Of a stretch of DNA of 27,505 nt, positions 1,926-27,505 are shown in pieces. The stretch spans positions 1 through 27,505 of IMG/VR virus record IMGVR_UViG_3300033141_000910; one strand, given 5' to 3'. Both the position numbers and the translations under genes were made by a program. This DNA comes from a virus. Positions within the stretch are counted from its first letter, which is position 1. Every line of letters starts with the position of its first letter. Below the pieces are notes generated by a model. The model saw nothing but the letters and a program-made list of their open reading frames with translations, searched no databases and was not told the origin of the DNA.

Positions 1926-2315
1926 ATGAAAAAATCTGAATTACGACATATAATAAGAGAAATGATTGAATCTATGCGGGTTGATCCACATTCTGTATCT
2001 AAAAAATTAGATAATAAAAAAATAAATGGGTGGGAAGCAGAATTTCAATATGCTACTGGTGGAATTGTTTGGTATAATGATAAATATATAGAAAATGATG
2101 ATCCTATTTGGGTAATTGAAAGTAGCCCATTTTATGATGGTGATGAATTTACTATGAATATTCATCATTTAGATACCAGTGATTTTTCAGATGTTGCTAT
2201 TCAAAAGATAAAACCATCTGGGAATGACGCAAAGGATTTAAAAGCGTTTGTTAATTTTTTTAAGAAAAATGTTGTTAAAGCAGAAAAGATGATTAAGAAG
2301 AATACTAAAAAATAG
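1926..2315 (+). CDS. Candidate internal head protein with MKKSEL leader, 129 aa
   Basis: The first 17 residues (MKKSELRHIIREMIESM) form a basic amphipathic helix nearly identical to the N-termini of the next three genes, while the rest differs. In T4, internal proteins IPI-III and Alt carry a short N-terminal capsid-targeting sequence that the gp21 protease removes after a (I/L)-x-E site. Here I-R-E at residues 10-12 fits that rule; M-I-E at 13-15 does not fit strictly. The body is aromatic-rich and acidic (GGIVWYNDKYIENDDPIWVIESSPFY has the density of a folded domain) and ends in a lysine-rich tail. GGCGAAATAAT precedes ATG. Internal-protein identity is inferred from leader and position; the body's function is unknown. 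Confidence 0.7.
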   Translation: MKKSELRHIIREMIESMRVDPHSVSKKLDNKKINGWEAEFQYATGGIVWYNDKYIENDDPIWVIESSPFYDGDEFTMNIHHLDTSDFSDVAIQKIKPSGNDAKDLKAFVNFFKKNVVKAEKMIKKNTKK

Positions 2316-2327
2316 GAGTAAGTGAGC

Positions 2328-2615
2328 ATGAAAAAGAGTGAACTACGACAAATGATACGGGAAATGATATCTGAAGCTACTGATCCAATGATTGATAAAA
2401 TTGGCGAAATTGCTAAACGGGTAGAATTGATGAGTATGAGAAAACCTTTAGAAAGGCTTTTTAAAAAGAATGATATTGATTTTGCTATGTCTCCTATTCC
2501 TCATTTTAGGGTTAAATATAAAGGGAAGGTTCTTATTATAGTAAATAAAAATTATGCTGATAATGCAGAATTGATTGTAAAAAATCTTGCCATTGGGTAT
2601 GAGGGGAGAATATAA
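2328..2615 (+). CDS. Candidate internal head protein with MKKSEL leader, 95 aa
   Basis: The ATG at 2328 is preferred to the in-frame GTG at 2322: it is 9 bases after AGGAG and restores the leader MKKSELRQMIREMISEATDP shared with neighbouring genes. I-S-E|A at residues 14-17 is a textbook-like prohead protease site, similar to the I-A-E|A of T4 capsid-targeting sequences. The remaining 79 residues hold a helix (IDKIGEIAKRVELMSM) and a short beta-rich segment (FRVKYKGKVLIIVNKNY). It has no recognised domain. Its stop is directly followed by the next start, so translation is likely coupled. Confidence 0.7.
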   Translation: MKKSELRQMIREMISEATDPMIDKIGEIAKRVELMSMRKPLERLFKKNDIDFAMSPIPHFRVKYKGKVLIIVNKNYADNAELIVKNLAIGYEGRI

Positions 2616-2894
2616 ATGAAAAGGAGTGAACTCAAAGAAATTATTCGACAAGAAGTATTAAATGAAGTCAAACCAAAAGCCAATAAAAATGGCGAAATAG
2701 ATATTGATAAATTATTTGATTATATTGAAGATGCTCAGACTGCTGTAAAAAATATAACATTTTATGCAAAAAATAATTTAAATGCATCAAAACATAAAAA
2801 AACTTTTATGTCTGTTTTAACTCATTTAAAAAGTGCTGAAAAACAATTATACACATTTGCAGAACGACATGGTGTGGTATTATTAGATAAATAA
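2616..2894 (+). CDS. Candidate internal head protein with MKRSEL leader, 92 aa
   Basis: The ATG begins at the base after the previous stop; GAGGGGAG lies upstream inside the preceding gene. The leader MKRSELKEIIRQEVLNEVKP repeats the local pattern, with L-N-E at residues 15-17 as a likely protease cut. The mature part is nearly all helical and basic (DYIEDAQTAVKNITFYAKNN, HLKSAEKQLYTFAERHG). A small basic helical protein would suit DNA-associated packaging in the capsid, but that is inference. The nucleotide sequence around the start (GAGAATATAAATGAAAAG) recurs almost exactly at the next gene, showing the two leaders arose by duplication or recombination. Confidence 0.7.
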   Translation: MKRSELKEIIRQEVLNEVKPKANKNGEIDIDKLFDYIEDAQTAVKNITFYAKNNLNASKHKKTFMSVLTHLKSAEKQLYTFAERHGVVLLDK

Positions 2895-2906
2895 TGGAGA
2901 ATATAA

Positions 2907-3191
2907 ATGAAAAGAAGTGAACTCAAAGAAATTATACGACAAGAGTTAAATGAAGCTAAAAAATATCCATCACAAGATGAAGCAGAATCTATGAGTGATT
3001 GGTATGATGCTGTTAATGGAATATCATTATTTGGTAATGAAGTAAGAGCTGAATTTGATAAAGCTGATAAAATTAGAATAAAGTTACATCTAAAGATATT
3101 TGGTGATAAATCACCGTGGTCTCTTGATCGAAAAGGAAATAAAACAAAAGTTGTGTGGGATAAACACAAAGCTGAAAAATTAGGGTTGTAA
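2907..3191 (+). CDS. Candidate internal head protein with MKRSEL leader, 94 aa
   Basis: The leader MKRSELKEIIRQELNEAKKY is the closest of the four to a canonical capsid-targeting sequence: L-N-E|A at residues 14-17 fits the T4 prohead protease rule. TGGAGAATATAA precedes the ATG. The mature part has an acidic start (DEAESMSDWYDAVNGISLFG) and a C-terminal half with alternating basic and hydrophobic residues (KIRIKLHLKIFG, NKTKVVWDKHKAEKLGL). No known domain was recognised. It is the last leader-bearing gene before the bS21-like gene. Confidence 0.7.
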   Translation: MKRSELKEIIRQELNEAKKYPSQDEAESMSDWYDAVNGISLFGNEVRAEFDKADKIRIKLHLKIFGDKSPWSLDRKGNKTKVVWDKHKAEKLGL

Positions 3192-3210: not shown

Positions 3211-3444
3211 ATGGATGATAAGAAAAAATTTAAAGGTTTATACGTTGAAGTTCGAAGTGAAGGCGACAAAGATGCTAATTTAGATTATGCTCTTAGAAAA
3301 TTAAAACAAATGATTAAAAATGATGATTTAATGGTACGAATACATGAAACATCACATTATACAAAACCATCTGAAAAACGAAGAGACCAACGTGCAAGGG
3401 CTAAAGCTCGTGCTCGTAGTCAAACAAAACGAAGTAATATGTAA
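3211..3444 (+). CDS. rpsU: Ribosomal protein bS21 homologue, 77 aa
   Basis: The sequence fits bS21 across its length: a short beta start (GLYVEVRSEG), the helix LDYALRKLKQMIKNDDLM, the turn VRIHETSHYTKPSEKRR, then an arginine/alanine-rich tail (RARAKARARSQTKR). Bacterial bS21 shows the same order (F-D-x-A-L-R-R-F-K-R, then E-x-x-x-Y-x-K-P-T/S-x-x-R, then a basic helix). bS21 sits on the 30S platform near the anti-Shine-Dalgarno end of 16S rRNA and aids initiation. It is one of the ribosomal proteins most often found in phage genomes. A phage copy could bias host ribosomes toward phage mRNAs; that is inference. GGAATACGTT precedes the ATG, and a terminator follows the gene. Confidence 0.75.
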   Translation: MDDKKKFKGLYVEVRSEGDKDANLDYALRKLKQMIKNDDLMVRIHETSHYTKPSEKRRDQRARAKARARSQTKRSNM

Positions 3445-3627: not shown

Positions 3628-4770
3628 ATGAGTAGCTTAATTAAAGAAGCCATCGCAGATGCTAAAGCTGTACGCGAAATGGCTGTAAAACAAGCGAAAG
3701 CAGCTCTTGAAGAAGCTTTTGCTCCACAAGTCGATGCTATAATTTCTCGTAAGCTCCAGACTGAAATGGAAGATGAAGAAGAAATTGAAGTAGAAGAACC
3801 AGAAGAAGAAGTTGAAGAAGCTATTTCTGCTGGTGCTGGTATTGAACTTGGTACTGATAATGACCATGAAGAAGCTGATGAAAATTCTGGATTAACAGAA
3901 GACGCTGACACATCGGGTATTGGTACTGGCGACAATAAAGAACCTTCTGCTGCTGCTTCTGAAGAATCCACTACAGATGCTGAAGGCGAAGTGACAGTTA
4001 AACCTGATCACGAAACTGCTAAAGAATCTGACCTGACTGAAGAAATCGACGAAATTGAAGAAGATGTAGACTTGGCTCAAATCGTTAAGGAATTGGAAGA
4101 CGAAACCAGCGAATTTGAAGAAGAAGAGTTTGAAACTGAAGATGAATTCGAAGCTGAAGAAGGATTTGGAGCTGAAGAAGAACCAGAAATGGAACCTGAA
4201 GCAGAACCTGAAGCAGAATTTGAAGCAGAACCTGAAGAAGAAGAACTCGAACTTGAAATTGACGATGATTTAGGTGAGGTAGAACCTGAACCTGAAGAGG
4301 AAGAAGAACTTGACCTCGAAGCTATTGTTGGTGAAGAAGAAGAACCTGAAGAAGACGAATTTAATTTCGAATCTCTACGACAAGAAAATGCTGAACTCAA
4401 AGCTAAATTAGGTGAAGCAATGAAAGCTGTAAAAATTCAAAAAGATCGTCTCAACGAAATTAACATCTTAAACGCTAAACTCTTATTTACAAATAAAGTA
4501 TTTGGTAAATATAATCTTGATGATAGTTCCAAGATTAAAGTTATCGAAAACTTTGACCGTGCTAAGAATGTACGCGAAGTAAAATTGATCTTTGCAACAC
4601 TTATGGAAAATATGAAAGCGGACGAACGCAAAATGTCTTCTAAAGCCCAACGGTTAGTCGAAGGCGCTTCAAAAGCTATCAAATCTACAAAAGCTGCAGA
4701 TAGTCAAATTATCAGTGAACAAGCGGAAGTTAAATCTCGCGTTCACAAACTTATGGGATTAAAATCATAA
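3628..4770 (+). CDS. gp22: Prohead core scaffolding protein, T4 gp22-like, 380 aa
   Basis: Scaffold proteins fill the prohead core and are degraded by the prohead protease before DNA enters. Three parts are visible: an N-terminal helix (KEAIADAKAVREMAVKQAK), a very acidic low-complexity stretch from about residue 48 to 245 made largely of E, D, P and A, and a C-terminal coiled-coil-like region. That region (ENAELKAKLGEAMKAV, then NILNAKLLFTNKVFGKYNL, then IENFDRAKNVREVKLIFATL) is the pattern I know from scaffold proteins of gp23-type phages. At 380 aa it is longer than T4 gp22 (269 aa), mostly because of the acidic insert. TTGGAGAAG precedes the ATG. It is directly upstream of the capsid gene, the usual T4 order. 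Confidence 0.8.
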   Translation: MSSLIKEAIADAKAVREMAVKQAKAALEEAFAPQVDAIISRKLQTEMEDEEEIEVEEPEEEVEEAISAGAGIELGTDNDHEEADENSGLTEDADTSGIGTGDNKEPSAAASEESTTDAEGEVTVKPDHETAKESDLTEEIDEIEEDVDLAQIVKELEDETSEFEEEEFETEDEFEAEEGFGAEEEPEMEPEAEPEAEFEAEPEEEELELEIDDDLGEVEPEPEEEEELDLEAIVGEEEEPEEDEFNFESLRQENAELKAKLGEAMKAVKIQKDRLNEINILNAKLLFTNKVFGKYNLDDSSKIKVIENFDRAKNVREVKLIFATLMENMKADERKMSSKAQRLVEGASKAIKSTKAADSQIISEQAEVKSRVHKLMGLKS

Positions 4771-4801: not shown

Positions 4802-6439
4802 ATGAGTAAAACTTTATTCAATTTGCAAAAATTGATGGAAGGTAAAAATCCTTATGATGCTCTTCTTGAACAAACCCGCGCTCTTGTGAAAAAATGGGAG
4901 CCAACTGGTCTTTTAGACGGTTTGGATGAAGAACATGAAGTATATGGGATGGCTGTCCTTCTTGAAAATCAGGCCCGTCAATTACTTGACGAAGTGTCTC
5001 AAACTGGTGGTGCCGGTTCGGAACAATGGTCTGGTGTAGCACTTCCATTAGTACGTCGTATTTTTGGCGAAGTGGCTGCTAAAGAATTTGTATCTATTCA
5101 ACCAATGAACTTGCCTTCAGGCCTTGTATTTTATATCGACTTTAAATACGGTGGCGGAACGCAACCGGGCTTCACCCAAAATGATTCTGTTTTCGGTGGA
5201 ACTGATGCTGCTAAAACTCCGGGCTCAACTGACGAAGCTTCTGGCGGACTCTACGGTGCTGGACGTTTTGGATATTCATTAAATGATGTTGCTGTATCTG
5301 GTGAAGCTAATCTCGGAACTACGGCTACGGGTGATACTTTCGCTTCTGGAACTGTTGCATACGGTGATATTAATTTCGAACAAGGTCATTTATCTGCATC
5401 TATGGCTGCTGGAAATTTGACTAAATTGTATTATAATACTGGATCTTTGACCACACCTGATTTTGAAGGCGTTCGTGCTTTCTCATTGGCGGGTACTGGT
5501 ATCTCGTTTTATTTACCACAATTTACTCAACAAGTTGGTTCAAATATTATGTGGATCGTTTCTGGTAGTGGTGGTCTTGGTGGTACTTTTTCGGGTAGTG
5601 CTTATACTATTAAATATCATAAACAACCTTCTGCTGATTCTCGTGGCGACTTTGAAGATACTACGGAATCTGGTAGTTTCACTCGTCTTGACATCCCAGA
5701 AATTGATCTTTCTGTGTCTCAAGAACCAATCGTTGCAAAAACACGTAAATTGAAAGCAGTTTGGACTCCTGAACTTGCTCAAGATTTAAATGCATATCAC
5801 TCAATTGACGCTGAAGCAGAATTAACTGCTCTCCTTTCTGAATACATCGGAATGGAAATTGATCTCGAAATTCTTGATATGTTGTTCGTGAACGCGCCTT
5901 CAACTGAATACTGGTCAGCTCGTCCGGGTTGGGAAATCAACTCTGGTAAATCTGCATTCTTGGATGCATCAAGCCATACCGGTACGAAAAATGAATGGTA
6001 TCAAACAATCGGTAATAAAATTCAAAAAATTAGTAACCAAATTCATAGATTAACATTACGCGGTGGAGCAAACTTCGTCGTGGTTAGTCCTGATGTGGCT
6101 ACTGTGATTGAATCTATTCCGGGATACGCAGCGGATACAGACGGAAACGCAATGACGTATGCTATGGGTGTACAAAAAGTGGGTATGCTTAACAGCAGAT
6201 TTACTGTGTACAAAAACCCTTACATGAATGAAAATGCAATTCTTGTTGGTTTTAGAGGAAGTAATTTCTTAGAAACTGGTGCTGTTTATTCACCATACAT
6301 TCCACTTATCATGACTCCGTTGATTCATGATCCAGACAATTTTACTCCTCGTCGCGGAGTTATGACTCGTTACGCGAAGAAGATAGTCCGGCCAGAATTC
6401 TACGGAAAAATCTATGTTCATGGTTTGGAAACTGTATAA
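4802..6439 (+). CDS. gp23: Major capsid protein, T4 gp23-like, 545 aa
   Basis: This is the hexamer-forming capsid shell protein of T4-like phages. Family signs are the N-terminal helical region (LMEGKNPYDALLEQTRALV), the SGLVFYIDFKYGG segment, and a C-terminus with GFRGSNFLETGAVYSPYIPL and DPDNFTPRRGVMTRYAKK. The length is near T4 gp23 (521 aa). T4 gp23 loses its first 65 residues to the gp21 protease; here L-L-D-E at residues 61-64, followed by V and a Gly/Ser-rich stretch (SQTGGAGSEQ), marks a likely cut after E64. TTAGGAG precedes the ATG. The gene follows the scaffold by 31 bases, and a strong terminator follows it, so the two form one transcription unit. Confidence 0.95.
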   Translation: MSKTLFNLQKLMEGKNPYDALLEQTRALVKKWEPTGLLDGLDEEHEVYGMAVLLENQARQLLDEVSQTGGAGSEQWSGVALPLVRRIFGEVAAKEFVSIQPMNLPSGLVFYIDFKYGGGTQPGFTQNDSVFGGTDAAKTPGSTDEASGGLYGAGRFGYSLNDVAVSGEANLGTTATGDTFASGTVAYGDINFEQGHLSASMAAGNLTKLYYNTGSLTTPDFEGVRAFSLAGTGISFYLPQFTQQVGSNIMWIVSGSGGLGGTFSGSAYTIKYHKQPSADSRGDFEDTTESGSFTRLDIPEIDLSVSQEPIVAKTRKLKAVWTPELAQDLNAYHSIDAEAELTALLSEYIGMEIDLEILDMLFVNAPSTEYWSARPGWEINSGKSAFLDASSHTGTKNEWYQTIGNKIQKISNQIHRLTLRGGANFVVVSPDVATVIESIPGYAADTDGNAMTYAMGVQKVGMLNSRFTVYKNPYMNENAILVGFRGSNFLETGAVYSPYIPLIMTPLIHDPDNFTPRRGVMTRYAKKIVRPEFYGKIYVHGLETV

Positions 6440-13542: not shown

Positions 13543-16500
13543 ATGGCTGATTTAAGCTATCAACATATATCACAGAGCTATGAAACATTAATTCAAACAA
13601 CTGGTTCAGATCAATTAGCTACTGCACTTGGTGCTATGGTAAATACAGTGAGAGCTGATATTTTTACTGGTTCGTTTTATGGAGGTACTTTTCAAGGAGA
13701 TGGACTTGTAATAAGTGGCAGTGCTTATATAAGTGGTTCTGTGTCTACTGATTGGGTTGATTTTACTAATGGAAGTGTGATTATAGATGCTCCATATAAA
13801 GAGGGTCGTTTATTTTACAATTCAGATGATGCAACATTAACAATGTATACGGATAATTCTGATGTATCATTACAACTTGGACAGGAAGAATGGGTAAAGG
13901 TTGTTAATAAAACTGGTGGAACAATCCCAGATGGAACGGCTGTTCGTATAAATGGAGCTCAAGGAAATCGCCCAACAATTTCGCAATCTAATGCAAGCCT
14001 TCGTGTAGGTTCTGTTGTGATTGGTTTAACGACTCATGAATTTTTAGATAATGAAGAAGGATATGTAACAGTTCACGGTACTGTACGTGGGTTAGATACT
14101 TCTGATTATTTTGCTGGTGCTCCGTTATATCTTCAGACAGGTTCTTTAGGTGAATTAACATTTCCTGCTCCACCATCACCCAATTATAGAACAATTGTTG
14201 GAGTTGTTACAGTAGCACATGGTACTCAAGGGGCTATTTATGTACAACCGACAATAGGAACATCAGTAGAAGATTTAAGTGATGTATGTTCAGTAAGAAC
14301 TAATCATGGATTACTTGTGTGGGATGAAACGAATGATATATGGTTTTCACCTCCAGATATAACATTTAGTGGTTCATTGCGAGAGAGTCCTGCAACTGTT
14401 GTAGGTTCAACATCAGTTGGTATCGGAACATTAAATCCTGAAACTAAATTACATGTTTGGGGTAATATATCTGCATCGGCTTTTTATGGTGATGGAGAAT
14501 TTGTAACTGGTGTTATTACTTCTGAATCATCAAGTGTTGCGGATTATTCTGATACAGCTGGAACATTACTTGGTTCAGTTGAATCAGCGTCTTATGCACC
14601 TATTGATACAGCGTATAGCGAATCAGTAAGTACACGAGTGACAACTTTAGAAACTAATGAAACAGCGAGTTTTGCTGTATCTGCTTCACGTGCTTTATCT
14701 GCTTCAATAGCTGATTTCTATCCTAACGCTGTAGTTGATTTTGCTAACATTACATCTGATCCAACAGGATATAAACCTGACGATAGAATTAATACTACAA
14801 TATCTCATAGTAATGTTGATAGAACAGTATATGTGTATCCAAAAGACGGGACGACATTTGATTATTATATTCATGGAACGCAATATAGTATTTCAACAAC
14901 TCATTCAGTAGTACATCCAGATGTTCAAGGAGAACATTTCTTCTATTTTGATAATACCGAAACATTACAAACATCAGGATTTGATTTAGAAACACTTATA
15001 CAAAATAATGCATATACAGCCAATCTTTATTGGGATACTGGAAGTCAAACGGCGTTAATAGTTGGTGATGAAAAACATGGACTTTCAATGGATCATTCAA
15101 CTCATGGATATTTACATACAATATTCGGAACGCAGTGGATAAGTGGATTAGGAATAGATGTATTTGATGTTGATGGAGATGGTGATATAAGTTCTTCTGC
15201 TCAAATTGGAATATCTAATGGTGTTATTGCTGACGAAGATATTAGGCATACGATTACTACGGGAGATTTACAAACATTAAATCCAACTGGGTCAATTCCA
15301 ATTTTATATAAGACTGGTTCGACAGGAACTTGGACGTTTAAGGTTGCTGACGAATATCCAATAATTCATCGTGGTTCATCAGTATCTTATATAAATACGA
15401 ATGGTCGAGTTCCATATAATTTAAATACAGGTGGAAATTGGACGCTTGAAGAAGTTTCTCATGTTAATTTTGTATTAGTTCATTATTTTGCTACAAATGA
15501 TATAGCATACAATAAAGTTATTGGTATTCAAGGGCAAGACTCGTATGCAAATAGTGGTGATGCAAGATCTGGGGCTGCGACTGAAATAGCAACAATAGTA
15601 ACAAGTGGATTACCAATGCAAGAATTTAAGGCTCTTGGTACAGTTATTTTTCAAACGAGTAATTTATATGATAATGTTCCAAGAACAAGAATTATATCAA
15701 CTGATACAGGTGATGAGTATGTAGATTTCAGAACTTCTGCTCCTATTGGAACTGGTACTTCTGTAAATGAGCATGGTTCTTTAAGTGGGTTAGTAAATGA
15801 TGACCATAAGCAATATATTTTAGTTGATGGAACACGAGATTTTGAAGGAACATCAAGTTTTGCTGTATCATCAAGTCATACATTGAGAGCTGACATAGCA
15901 GATAATGCTATAGAATATAGTTCCAGTTTTGAAATTCGTATTACAACTGACGAAAGTAATATAAGCGATTTACAAACTGACAGTGGAAGTTTTAGTACAA
16001 GGGTCATGACGAATGAAACAGATATTACAAATTTAGAAACTGATAGTGGTTCATTTAGTACGAGGGTAACAACGAATGAAACAGACATTTCAAATCTTGA
16101 AACTGATTCAGGAAGTTTTGGTACAAGAGTTACTGATTTAGAAAATGAAGTTTCAATTAGTTATGCTGATACATCAGTAAGTTCAAGTTATGCTTTATCA
16201 GCAAGTAATGCTTGGTTAGCTGATTATGCTACTTTGGCAAGTAATTCTTGGTTAGCTGATTATGCTACTTCTTCAAGTTATTCTGATTATGCTGAAACGG
16301 CTTCTTTAATTAATGGCAACATACATATATCTGTTCCATCAATCACACAAGAAGTTAATGGAACAACGTTTGATTTTATTGTTGGTGAGAATGTATCATT
16401 TGGAGATTTACTTTATATGAGTGGTAGTGGACAATATACTATTGTTGATACAACATCAACAAGTTCAATGCCTGGAGTTGTTCTTGCGACGGAAACAGCA

Positions 16501-24965: not shown

Positions 24966-27505
24966 AAGTAAGTGGATCAATTTATGGTGATGGTGAATAT
25001 ATAACTGGAGTGGTATCTGCGAGTCATGCTGTGAGAGCTGATATAGCCGACAATGCCATTGATTACAGTTCAAGTTTTGAAGGTAGATTGACGACTGACG
25101 AAAGTGATATAAGTGGTTTACAAACTGATAGTGGTTCATTTAGCACACGAGTTACAACAAACGAAGCAGACATTGATAATTTAGAAACTGACTCAGGAAG
25201 TTTTTCAACCAGAGTAACAACGAATGAAGCAGACATTGATAATTTAGAAACTGATAGCGGGTCGTTTAGTACTCGTGTAACAACTTTAGAAACCGATGAA
25301 ACGGCAAGTTTTGCAGTATCTGCTTCGCATGCTCTTTTTGCTGATGTAGCACAAAGTGTAATTGGAACAATTGATTCTGCGAGTTACGCAGATTATGCTG
25401 TATCAGCAAGTCATGCTTTAAGAGCTGACATAGCCGATAATGCTACAAGTGCTTCTTATGCTGATTGGACAATATCAAGTTCATTTAGTGATACATCAAT
25501 TAGTAGTTCTCATACGTTAGTCGCAGATGTTGCTAATAGCGTCATTGGAACAATTGATTCAGCGAGTTATGCAGATTATGCTGTATCTGCATCTCATGCT
25601 TTAAGAGCTGATATAGCCGATAATGCTATTGATTATAGTTCAAGTTTTGAAGATCGGATTACAACGAATGAAACCGACATTGATAATTTAGAAACTGATA
25701 GTGGGTCATTTAGTACAAGGGTCACGACCAATGAAACAGACATTGATAATTTAGAAACTGATAGTGGTTCATTCAGTACACGGGTGACTACTTTAGAAAC
25801 TGATGAAACGGCAAGTTTTGCAGTATCTGCTTCGCATGCTCTTTTTGCTGATGTAGCACAGAGTGTAGTTGGAACAATTGATTCAGCGAGTTATTCAGAT
25901 TATGCTGTATCTGCAAGTCATGCTTTAAGAGCTGATATTGCTGATAATGCTATTGATTATAGTTCAAGTTTTGAAACAAGAATAACGACTGATGAAACAG
26001 ACATAAGCAATTTACAAACTGATTCAGGTTCATTCAGTACAAGAGTTACAACAAACGAAACTGATATTGATAATTTACAAACTGACAGTGGAAGTTTTAG
26101 TACAAGGGTGACGACTAATGAAACAGACATTGATAATTTAGAAACTGACTCAGGCTCATTTAGTACAAGGGTAACAACAAATGAATCTGATATAAGCACA
26201 AATTTATTGAATTATACGACTGATAGTGGTTCAGTTAGTACGAGAATAACAACTTTAGAAGGTGAAACTGATGGAGCTTGGACAGCATCTGATGGATATA
26301 TTTCACGATTTGGTGATGTAAAAATAAGTGGCAGTTTATATGTGAGTGGTTCATTTAATTTAGGAACAGAAGTTTCTGTTACAAATATATCGAATGATGC
26401 TGCATTAGCTGATAACAGCCAAACTGATCTTGTAACAGAATATGCTGCTAAATCTTATACTGATGCTGCTTTGGTTGAGGCTGCTTCTGGTAGTGTATTT
26501 GGAAGTGGATCGACAGGATACATTGCTCGTTGGAAAAGTAGTGCATCATTAGAAGATTCTAAAATATACGATACTGGAACAAGTGTGGGTATTGGAATTA
26601 CTACACCAGAAGAAGAGTTACATGTATGGAATAATATAAGTGCTTCTGCTTTTTATGGAGACGGAGAATTTGTAACAGGAGTTGTTTCATCATCCTATGC
26701 TCCAGTAGAGGCTGTATTTAGTGAAAGCATATCAGATAGAGTAACAACGAATGAAATAGATATTGATAATTTAGAAACTGATTCAGGTTCATTTAGCACA
26801 AGAGTTACGACGAATGAAACAGATATCACAAATCTTGAAACTGATAGTGGAAGTTTTAGTACAAGGGTGACGACTTTAGAAACTGACGAAACAGCAAGCT
26901 ACGCAGATTATGCTACATCAGCAAGTCATGCTTTGAGAGCTGATATTGCTGATAATGCCATTGATTATAGTTCAAGTTTTGAAGATAGATTGACGACTGA
27001 TGAAACAGATATAAGCAATTTACAGACTGATAGTGGTTCATTTAGTACAAGGGTGACGGCGAATGAAACAGACATTGATAATTTAGAAACTGATTCAGGA
27101 AGTTTTAGCACAAGGGTGACGACTTTAGAAACTGATGAAACAGCATCTTACGCAGATTATGCTACATCAGCGAGTCATGCTTTAAGGGCAGATATTGCCG
27201 ACAGTGTAGTTGGAACGATTGAATCAGCGTCGTTTGCTCAGAATGCATTTGATTATAGTGCATCTTTTAGTACAAGAATTACAACTGATGAAAGTGATAT
27301 ATCTACAAATGAAACAGACATAAGCAATTTAGAAACTGATAGTGGCTCATTTAGTACAAGAATAACAACAGTAGAAGAATTAACTGGTAGCTATTGGACT
27401 GGTAGTATAACAGGAATAACAAGAGAAGGTAATGTTGAAATAGACGGAGATCTTGATGTAACAGGTATTCTTACAGCACAAGAATTTCACACATCATTTG
27501 TATCA
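24872..27505 (+). CDS. Fibre protein, continuation in shifted frame, at least 878 codons, open at the window end
   Basis: This frame is open from 24824 to the last base, with fibre-like sequence from 24872 onward. It has no start of its own, so it is the downstream part of the 23031 gene. Modules in order are: SASIIYSSGSTKFGD and SGSIYGDGEYITGV; alternating SHALRADIADNAIDYSSSFE linkers and 21-residue coiled-coil repeats (consensus NETDIDNLETDSGSFSTRVT); the FNLGTEVSVTNISNDAAL to GYIARWKSS module; LHVWNNISASAFYGDGEF; more coiled-coil repeats; and finally the YWTGSITGITREGNVEIDGD module again. With the N-terminal part the intact protein would exceed 1500 residues. A trimeric, mostly coiled-coil long fibre is the likely product. 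Confidence 0.85.
25106..27380 (+). repeat. In-frame 63-base repeats coding 21-residue coiled-coil units
   Basis: The core TDSGSFSTR occurs 13 times here plus one variant (TDSGSVSTR), in runs with a 63-base period (for example at 25679 and 25742), broken by other modules. Twenty-one residues equal three heptads, with I, L, F and V in core positions, as expected for a trimeric coiled coil. Three related units lie at 15961-16130 and two at 20650-20745. Confidence 0.9.
26351..26558 (+). repeat. Fibre module repeat, copy 2 (partner 20050-20257)
   Basis: This is a near-identical counterpart of the module in the 19522 gene. The sequences on either side differ more, so the match has defined edges, as expected for module exchange or gene conversion. 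Confidence 0.85.
27392..27505 (+). repeat. Exact 114-base direct repeat, copy 2, reaching the window end
   Basis: Identical to 24759-24872. The window stops inside it, at the base corresponding to 24872, only two bases into the second 14-base unit of copy 1. What follows copy 2 is therefore unknown. Confidence 0.93.

Follow-up and report, generated by a model that had tools for sequence, protein, structure and literature searches.

The DNA analysed here, hereafter the window, is a 27,505-base fragment from an uncultivated T4-like phage (IMG/VR record IMGVR_UViG_3300033141_000910). It encodes a gp23-type capsid protein, the mark by which membership of the T4 superfamily is judged, and the nearest cultured capsid proteins are those of Microcystis phage Mel-JY01 (55%) and Flavobacterium phage immuto (53%). 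Upstream of the capsid gene lies a cassette of small genes (Table 1), for which the original prediction had described four members at 1926-3191 with the common leader MK(K/R)SEL(R/K)xxIR(E/Q). All four open reading frames are present with ribosome-binding sites (1926-2315, 2328-2615, 2616-2894 and 2907-3191), the second starting at ATG 2328, which is better spaced from its AGGAG than the GTG 2322 of the ORF list; the first 12 residues read MKKSELRHIIRE, MKKSELRQMIRE, MKRSELKEIIRQ and MKRSELKEIIRQ, respectively. The bodies diverge after the leader as had been claimed, with pairwise BLOSUM scores of 40-59 over the first 16 residues and -15 to +5 from residue 25 on, and three of the leaders do end in ISE or LNE (MISE↓A, VLNE↓V and ELNE↓A, where the arrow marks the predicted cut), gene 1926 having only an internal IRE12. 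Two points required amendment: a fifth gene, 1692-1904, begins with a second leader type, MKKEQWGKLLHENKLNE↓F, so that the cassette is not four genes with one leader, and it does not lie directly upstream of the scaffold, since an S21-like gene at 3211-3444 (PF01165, 4e-8) stands in between. An S21-like gene is also found in the head modules of the related records L002, L005 and L054 and of Mel-JY01. Counting the fifth gene, the [LI]xE leader end is present in four of the five window genes, gene 1926 being the exception. The scaffold-like ORF at 3628-4770 had no family match.

Table 1. Leader genes and adjoining head genes of the window (↓, predicted cut)
Feature	Position	Strand	Remarks
Leader type 2, MKKEQWGKLLHENKLNE↓, 17 residues	1692..1742	+	same type in L005, L248, L054, L002
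Body of gene 1692-1904, 53 aa	1743..1904	+	no family above threshold
Leader type 1, MKKSELRHIIRE	1926..1961	+	leader end without [LI]xE; internal IRE12 only
Remainder of gene 1926-2315	1962..2315	+	no family above threshold; relatives searched, none
Leader type 1, MKKSELRQMIREMISE↓, 16 residues	2328..2375	+	lone low-confidence helix in model
Body of gene 2328, 79 aa	2376..2615	+	compact alpha/beta domain; two other leaders in L248, L249
Leader type 1, MKRSELKEIIRQEVLNE↓, 17 residues	2616..2666	+	
Body of gene 2616, 75 aa	2667..2894	+	no family above threshold
Leader type 1, MKRSELKEIIRQELNE↓, 16 residues	2907..2954	+	DNA, with 15 bases upstream, 89% identical to that of gene 2616
Body of gene 2907, 78 aa	2955..3191	+	no family above threshold; no relatives
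Acidic scaffold-like protein	3628..4770	+	position and composition; same place in L002, L005, L054
Capsid-protein propeptide, 64 residues, ends LLDE↓V at gp23 cut position	4802..4993	+	
Mature major capsid protein, gp23 type	4994..6439	+	PF07068, 1.9e-77 (capsid gene 4802-6439)

Two other regions of the window deserve mention. ORF 392-1690 encodes a DUF3008 domain and a second protein in one frame; because these are separate genes in the sisters L002, L005 and L054, and because an AGGAG of its own precedes the internal ATG at 845, the ORF would be either a natural fusion or the result of a lost stop codon. The long ORF 25010-27505 is repeat-rich (NLETDSGSFSTRVTTNETDI, SASHALRADIADNAIDYSSSF), similar repeats occur in the ORFs at 13543 and 19522, and all three perhaps encode tail-fibre-like proteins. 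The motif TATAAATA was dropped as a late promoter of the cassette because its six matches in the window are near the 4.8 expected and none lies upstream of the cassette on the same strand.

A degenerate DNA pattern covering leader residues 1-13 gave at least 120 matches in IMG/VR but, in 257 Gb of prokaryote genomes, no more than three contigs. Two of the three belong to a single metagenome bin and hold additional leader genes, so they are likely of phage origin. A chance origin of the matches is excluded by their strand bias, in that 34 start codons among relatives of the capsid gene fit the leader profile and every one of them lies on the head-gene strand, and by the lack of any match to the reversed pattern in 30 whole records. 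All 52 pattern matches in records bearing a peptidase S77 gene likewise lie on the strand of that gene. With a 14-position profile we collected 268 distinct leader proteins whose bodies (median length beyond the predicted cut, 85 residues) fall into 228 clusters, 198 of them singletons. The pattern described in the original prediction is real and more extensive than the four genes named there. Leader genes cluster in the head module and number up to nine per locus (L143, a 14-kb locus). At the site flanked on one side by the conserved homologue of ORF 845-1690 and on the other by the conserved scaffold gene, there are five leader genes in the window, two in L005 and none in L002 or L054; the capsid proteins of L002, L005 and L006 are 79-80% identical to that of the window.

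The type-2 leader recurs at L005:466, L005:685, L005:7727, L248:720, L248:1051, L054:3240 and L002:3734, in every case with [LIV]xE, and L005 and L248 each hold at least two such genes with differing bodies; a wider scan returned the L248 contig alone with a pattern that required NENKL and thereby missed L005 (NENTL). Simple scans yielded further types, eight genes of a W-type, 17 of a NFDLKKYLAEGKLLKE-type and four of an RMQKLAG-type, all with [LIV]xE, which is partly expected by chance in these three types given the wide search interval. Low-complexity and antisense frames were disregarded in the de novo scan for common N-termini. A tblastn search with the leader against 50,697 named phage records returned a single weak match (LR756508, E = 1), each listed Pfam, PHROGs or NCBIfam model hit at most one of 150 leader proteins, and the leader was absent from the open-access full texts searched. 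The leader families therefore appear to be undescribed in the open-access literature and the models searched.

As the collecting pattern was restricted to residues 1-13, any signal beyond residue 13 is independent of the search. Information content is 1.4 bits at residue 20, where 92 of 182 leader proteins have Glu, and does not exceed 0.5 bits at residue 21 or beyond. The triplet [LI]xE occurs at residues 13-26 in 144 of these 182 proteins, against a mean of 72.6 and a maximum of 91 in 2000 shuffles, and in 216 of 261 complete leader proteins of the enlarged set (83%); the control values are 85 of 375 (23%) for the remaining ORFs of these loci and 25 of 247 for residues 41-54 within the leader proteins themselves. 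LNE and LKE are the commonest triplets, followed most often by A, G or N; about 15-17% of leader proteins, gene 1926 among them, have no motif at the leader end.

The same motif recurs at the processing sites of the head. Of 30 records tested, 23 encode peptidase S77 (PF03420); among them are the close sisters L002, L005 and L006, in which its gene lies ~7-8 kb upstream of the capsid gene. The window fragment has no S77 gene. The seven leader-bearing records without S77 are all fragments that lack gp23 too, and in a second set S77 was present in 12 of 12 leader-bearing records with gp23. All 46 protease sequences share the motifs GELDHP and SSRG without change. The capsid proteins have Glu at the cut site in 57 of 57 aligned sequences, with L, I or V two residues earlier; the window protein has LLDE↓V after residue 64, and T4 gp23 loses 65 residues (PMC5694885). 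The proteases themselves carry [LI]xE↓[GS] near residue 21 in 44 of 46 cases, which agrees with a proposal that T4 gp21 cleaves its own N-terminus (PMC9958956). A cut preference of [LIV]xE can be read for the group from the sequences of its capsid protein and protease N-terminus; in T4 Alt, cleavage follows ITE and LTE (PMC5694885). In two phages of sample 3300035698 (L249, L203, L241), in-frame TGA codons stand where S77 and gp23 have a conserved Trp, suggesting that these phages read TGA as Trp.

Leader and body behave as separable units. The body of gene 2328 follows MDKKLWNKIFNENKLVTE in L248 (63% identity) and MKIKEIQLRQIIKEEIQWLNE in L249 (56%, with TGA read as Trp), so that one body stands under three leaders with the Glu at the same place or one residue off. 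Similarly, one body stands behind MKKSELKQIIKEEISKISNE in L162 and, at 81% identity, behind MDNFDLKKYLAEGKLFEE in L080. In L009 and L010, a leader ending INE↓ precedes VSTTGTGASFTPGTGAQYA, a near-match to the mature capsid N-terminus in register with the capsid cut, and related small proteins have other N-termini in other phages. A segment resembling the mature capsid N-terminus, STTGTGASFTPGTGAQYATPxAF, occurs in small head-module proteins (L009:5260-5523, L255:14454-14675 and relatives). On the minus strand of L143 near 7970, DUF3008 is followed by SIRQLIRKEIESINE↓A and a body seen elsewhere behind other N-termini, and the window copy of DUF3008 (392-560) ends KVKKEITE↓G; DUF3008 may be a longer head-targeting module. 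Searches for relatives of the bodies of genes 1926 and 2907 found none, and for that of 2616 found L251 only, at 35%. An AlphaFold2 model was made for gene 2328 with two relatives; for gene 2328 it has a confident domain from about residue 20, an isolated low-confidence helix at residues 3-13, and pLDDT below 50 at residues 11-16, the predicted cut falling after 16. A fold search with this body gave no PDB or viral-library match at E < 0.001.

The leader families, the motif at their end, the exchange of leaders between bodies and the recurrence of that motif in the capsid protein and the protease are directly observed. From these we infer targeting, cleavage and packaging of the tagged proteins, and we consider it probable that the leaders are prohead-targeting propeptides cut by the S77 prohead protease. 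The claim of a cleavable capsid-targeting leader is well supported by the end of conservation at the Glu of LxE, by the recurrence of this motif at the capsid-protein and protease sites, by the presence of S77 in every leader record with gp23 and by leader swaps at the predicted cut. In the putative mechanism, the N-terminal helix would recruit the tagged protein into the assembling prohead core, the protease would cut after the Glu of [LIV]xE as in the capsid protein, and the untagged bodies would remain in the head beside the DNA and pass into the next host cell; injection is likely, with less certainty than targeting. Leader and body would be separate modules, with several leader families serving one purpose, and the junction would be where bodies are acquired, dropped or given a new tag, so that the cargo of small proteins changes quickly.

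The closest known parallel is the capsid-targeting sequence (CTS) of T4 IPI, IPII, IPIII and Alt, which is cut by gp21 (PMC3012670, PMC5694885, PMC12373910). Both systems have a short N-terminal propeptide (about 10-20 residues here) on otherwise unrelated small proteins with variable bodies, and it ends in the Glu after which an S77 protease cuts in T4 and is predicted to cut here; by the same rule, T4 ipI has a 19-residue leader and a 76-residue body. The likeness to T4 drawn in the original prediction holds as analogy and fails as homology, since ipI, ipII and ipIII score -34 to -38 on the leader profile. Unlike T4, these phages have at least four leader families and up to nine leader genes per 14-kb locus, and the genes adjoin the scaffold and capsid genes in the head module, the T4 ip genes lying elsewhere. 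The leaders most likely work like the T4 CTS while being unrelated to it in sequence. Ejection proteins of the giant phages SPN3US and phiKZ, which are head proteins, also have propeptides cut after Glu, and gp53 and gp54 are identical at the N-terminus (PMC5694885), but there the protease is S80, the site AXE or SXE and most propeptides exceed 100 residues, compared with S77, [LIV]xE and 16-20 residues in the window group. P1 Dar and Hdf are described as virion proteins tied to head assembly and restriction protection (PMC12810830), and in this they would resemble the proteins described here.

The most serious alternative, which we regard as the less likely outcome, accepts that the tags are targeting signals and are cleaved but holds that the bodies are in-virion components of head assembly or DNA packing and not injected effectors. 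The clustering of leader genes in the head module, the leader protein resembling the mature capsid N-terminus and the net charge of +3 to +5 in three of the four type-1 window bodies would suit such components, but many bodies lack a positive charge (in 87 of 261 the net charge is negative), their extreme diversity, with most of them singletons, is unlike core assembly parts, and leader genes come and go at one place between phages with capsid proteins 80% identical.

It is improbable that the leader is instead a docking helix for another phage complex, such as the late transcription or replication machinery, with LxE as a usual helix end. The first 14 residues are predicted to form an amphipathic helix, and the terminase N-terminus MSTELKQIIRQEY looks alike; since terminase is implausible as an internal protein, the helix alone is no proof of targeting. 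However, LxE, unlike LxD, is enriched fourfold over the other ORFs of the leader loci, it is the sole feature common to unrelated leader types, and the capsid protein and protease carry the same motif. Least credible of all is that the four genes are ordinary tandem duplicates with quickly diverged C-termini: the leader plus 15 upstream bases of genes 2616 and 2907 are indeed 89% identical in DNA, but body DNA among the cassette genes is at background identity (52-54%), the leader codons differ synonymously between genes while the protein sequence is kept, and the body of gene 2328 stands under unrelated leaders in other phages.

With the leaders read as prohead-targeting propeptides, the bodies plausibly are, by analogy, anti-defense or host-takeover factors. 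This idea rests on T4 IPI-III, inhibitors of different GmrSD enzymes (PMC12373910), since few bodies match any family: among 150 leader proteins scanned against Pfam, PHROGs, NCBIfam and PADLOC the bodies were orphan with few exceptions, namely single matches to leucine-rich repeats, DUF7678, DUF6934, an SduA-like domain and an HPF/YfiA-like domain. One leader protein of L080 gave a weak, below-cut-off ADP-ribosyltransferase signal (6e-4), of note since T4 injects an ADP-ribosyltransferase, Alt (PMC7411985); the model of this protein (L080 with L098) has a mean pLDDT of 51. At L249:4039-4599 a leader-like N-terminus, RLNE↓G, is followed by a zeta-toxin/AAA-type kinase domain (2.5e-9). The cultured relative Flavobacterium phage immuto_2-6A, whose host is Flavobacterium sp. 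LMO8, carries leaders of this kind, with predicted cuts after ...AQLLKE (gp077), ...SKILKE (gp076), ...AGIITE (gp083) and ...EVLEE (gp072). No published virion mass-spectrometry set was found for it.

Taken as a whole, the original interpretation is partly supported. Hundreds of proteins that are otherwise unrelated are probably directed by these tags into the phage head, from which they would be injected into the next bacterial cell. A wider proposition seems to us evenly poised between true and false, namely that uncultivated T4-like phages hold a large, interchangeable set of leaders forming a general cargo system that delivers hundreds of small proteins, a gene joining its leader at LxE, with the T4 internal proteins a small and separately evolved example. 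If so, a simple sequence tag would mark injected cargo in uncultivated phages and would turn hundreds of orphan genes into ranked candidates for anti-defense or host-takeover proteins; if our reading is right, the junction would also provide a modular route by which phages alter the cargo that they inject.
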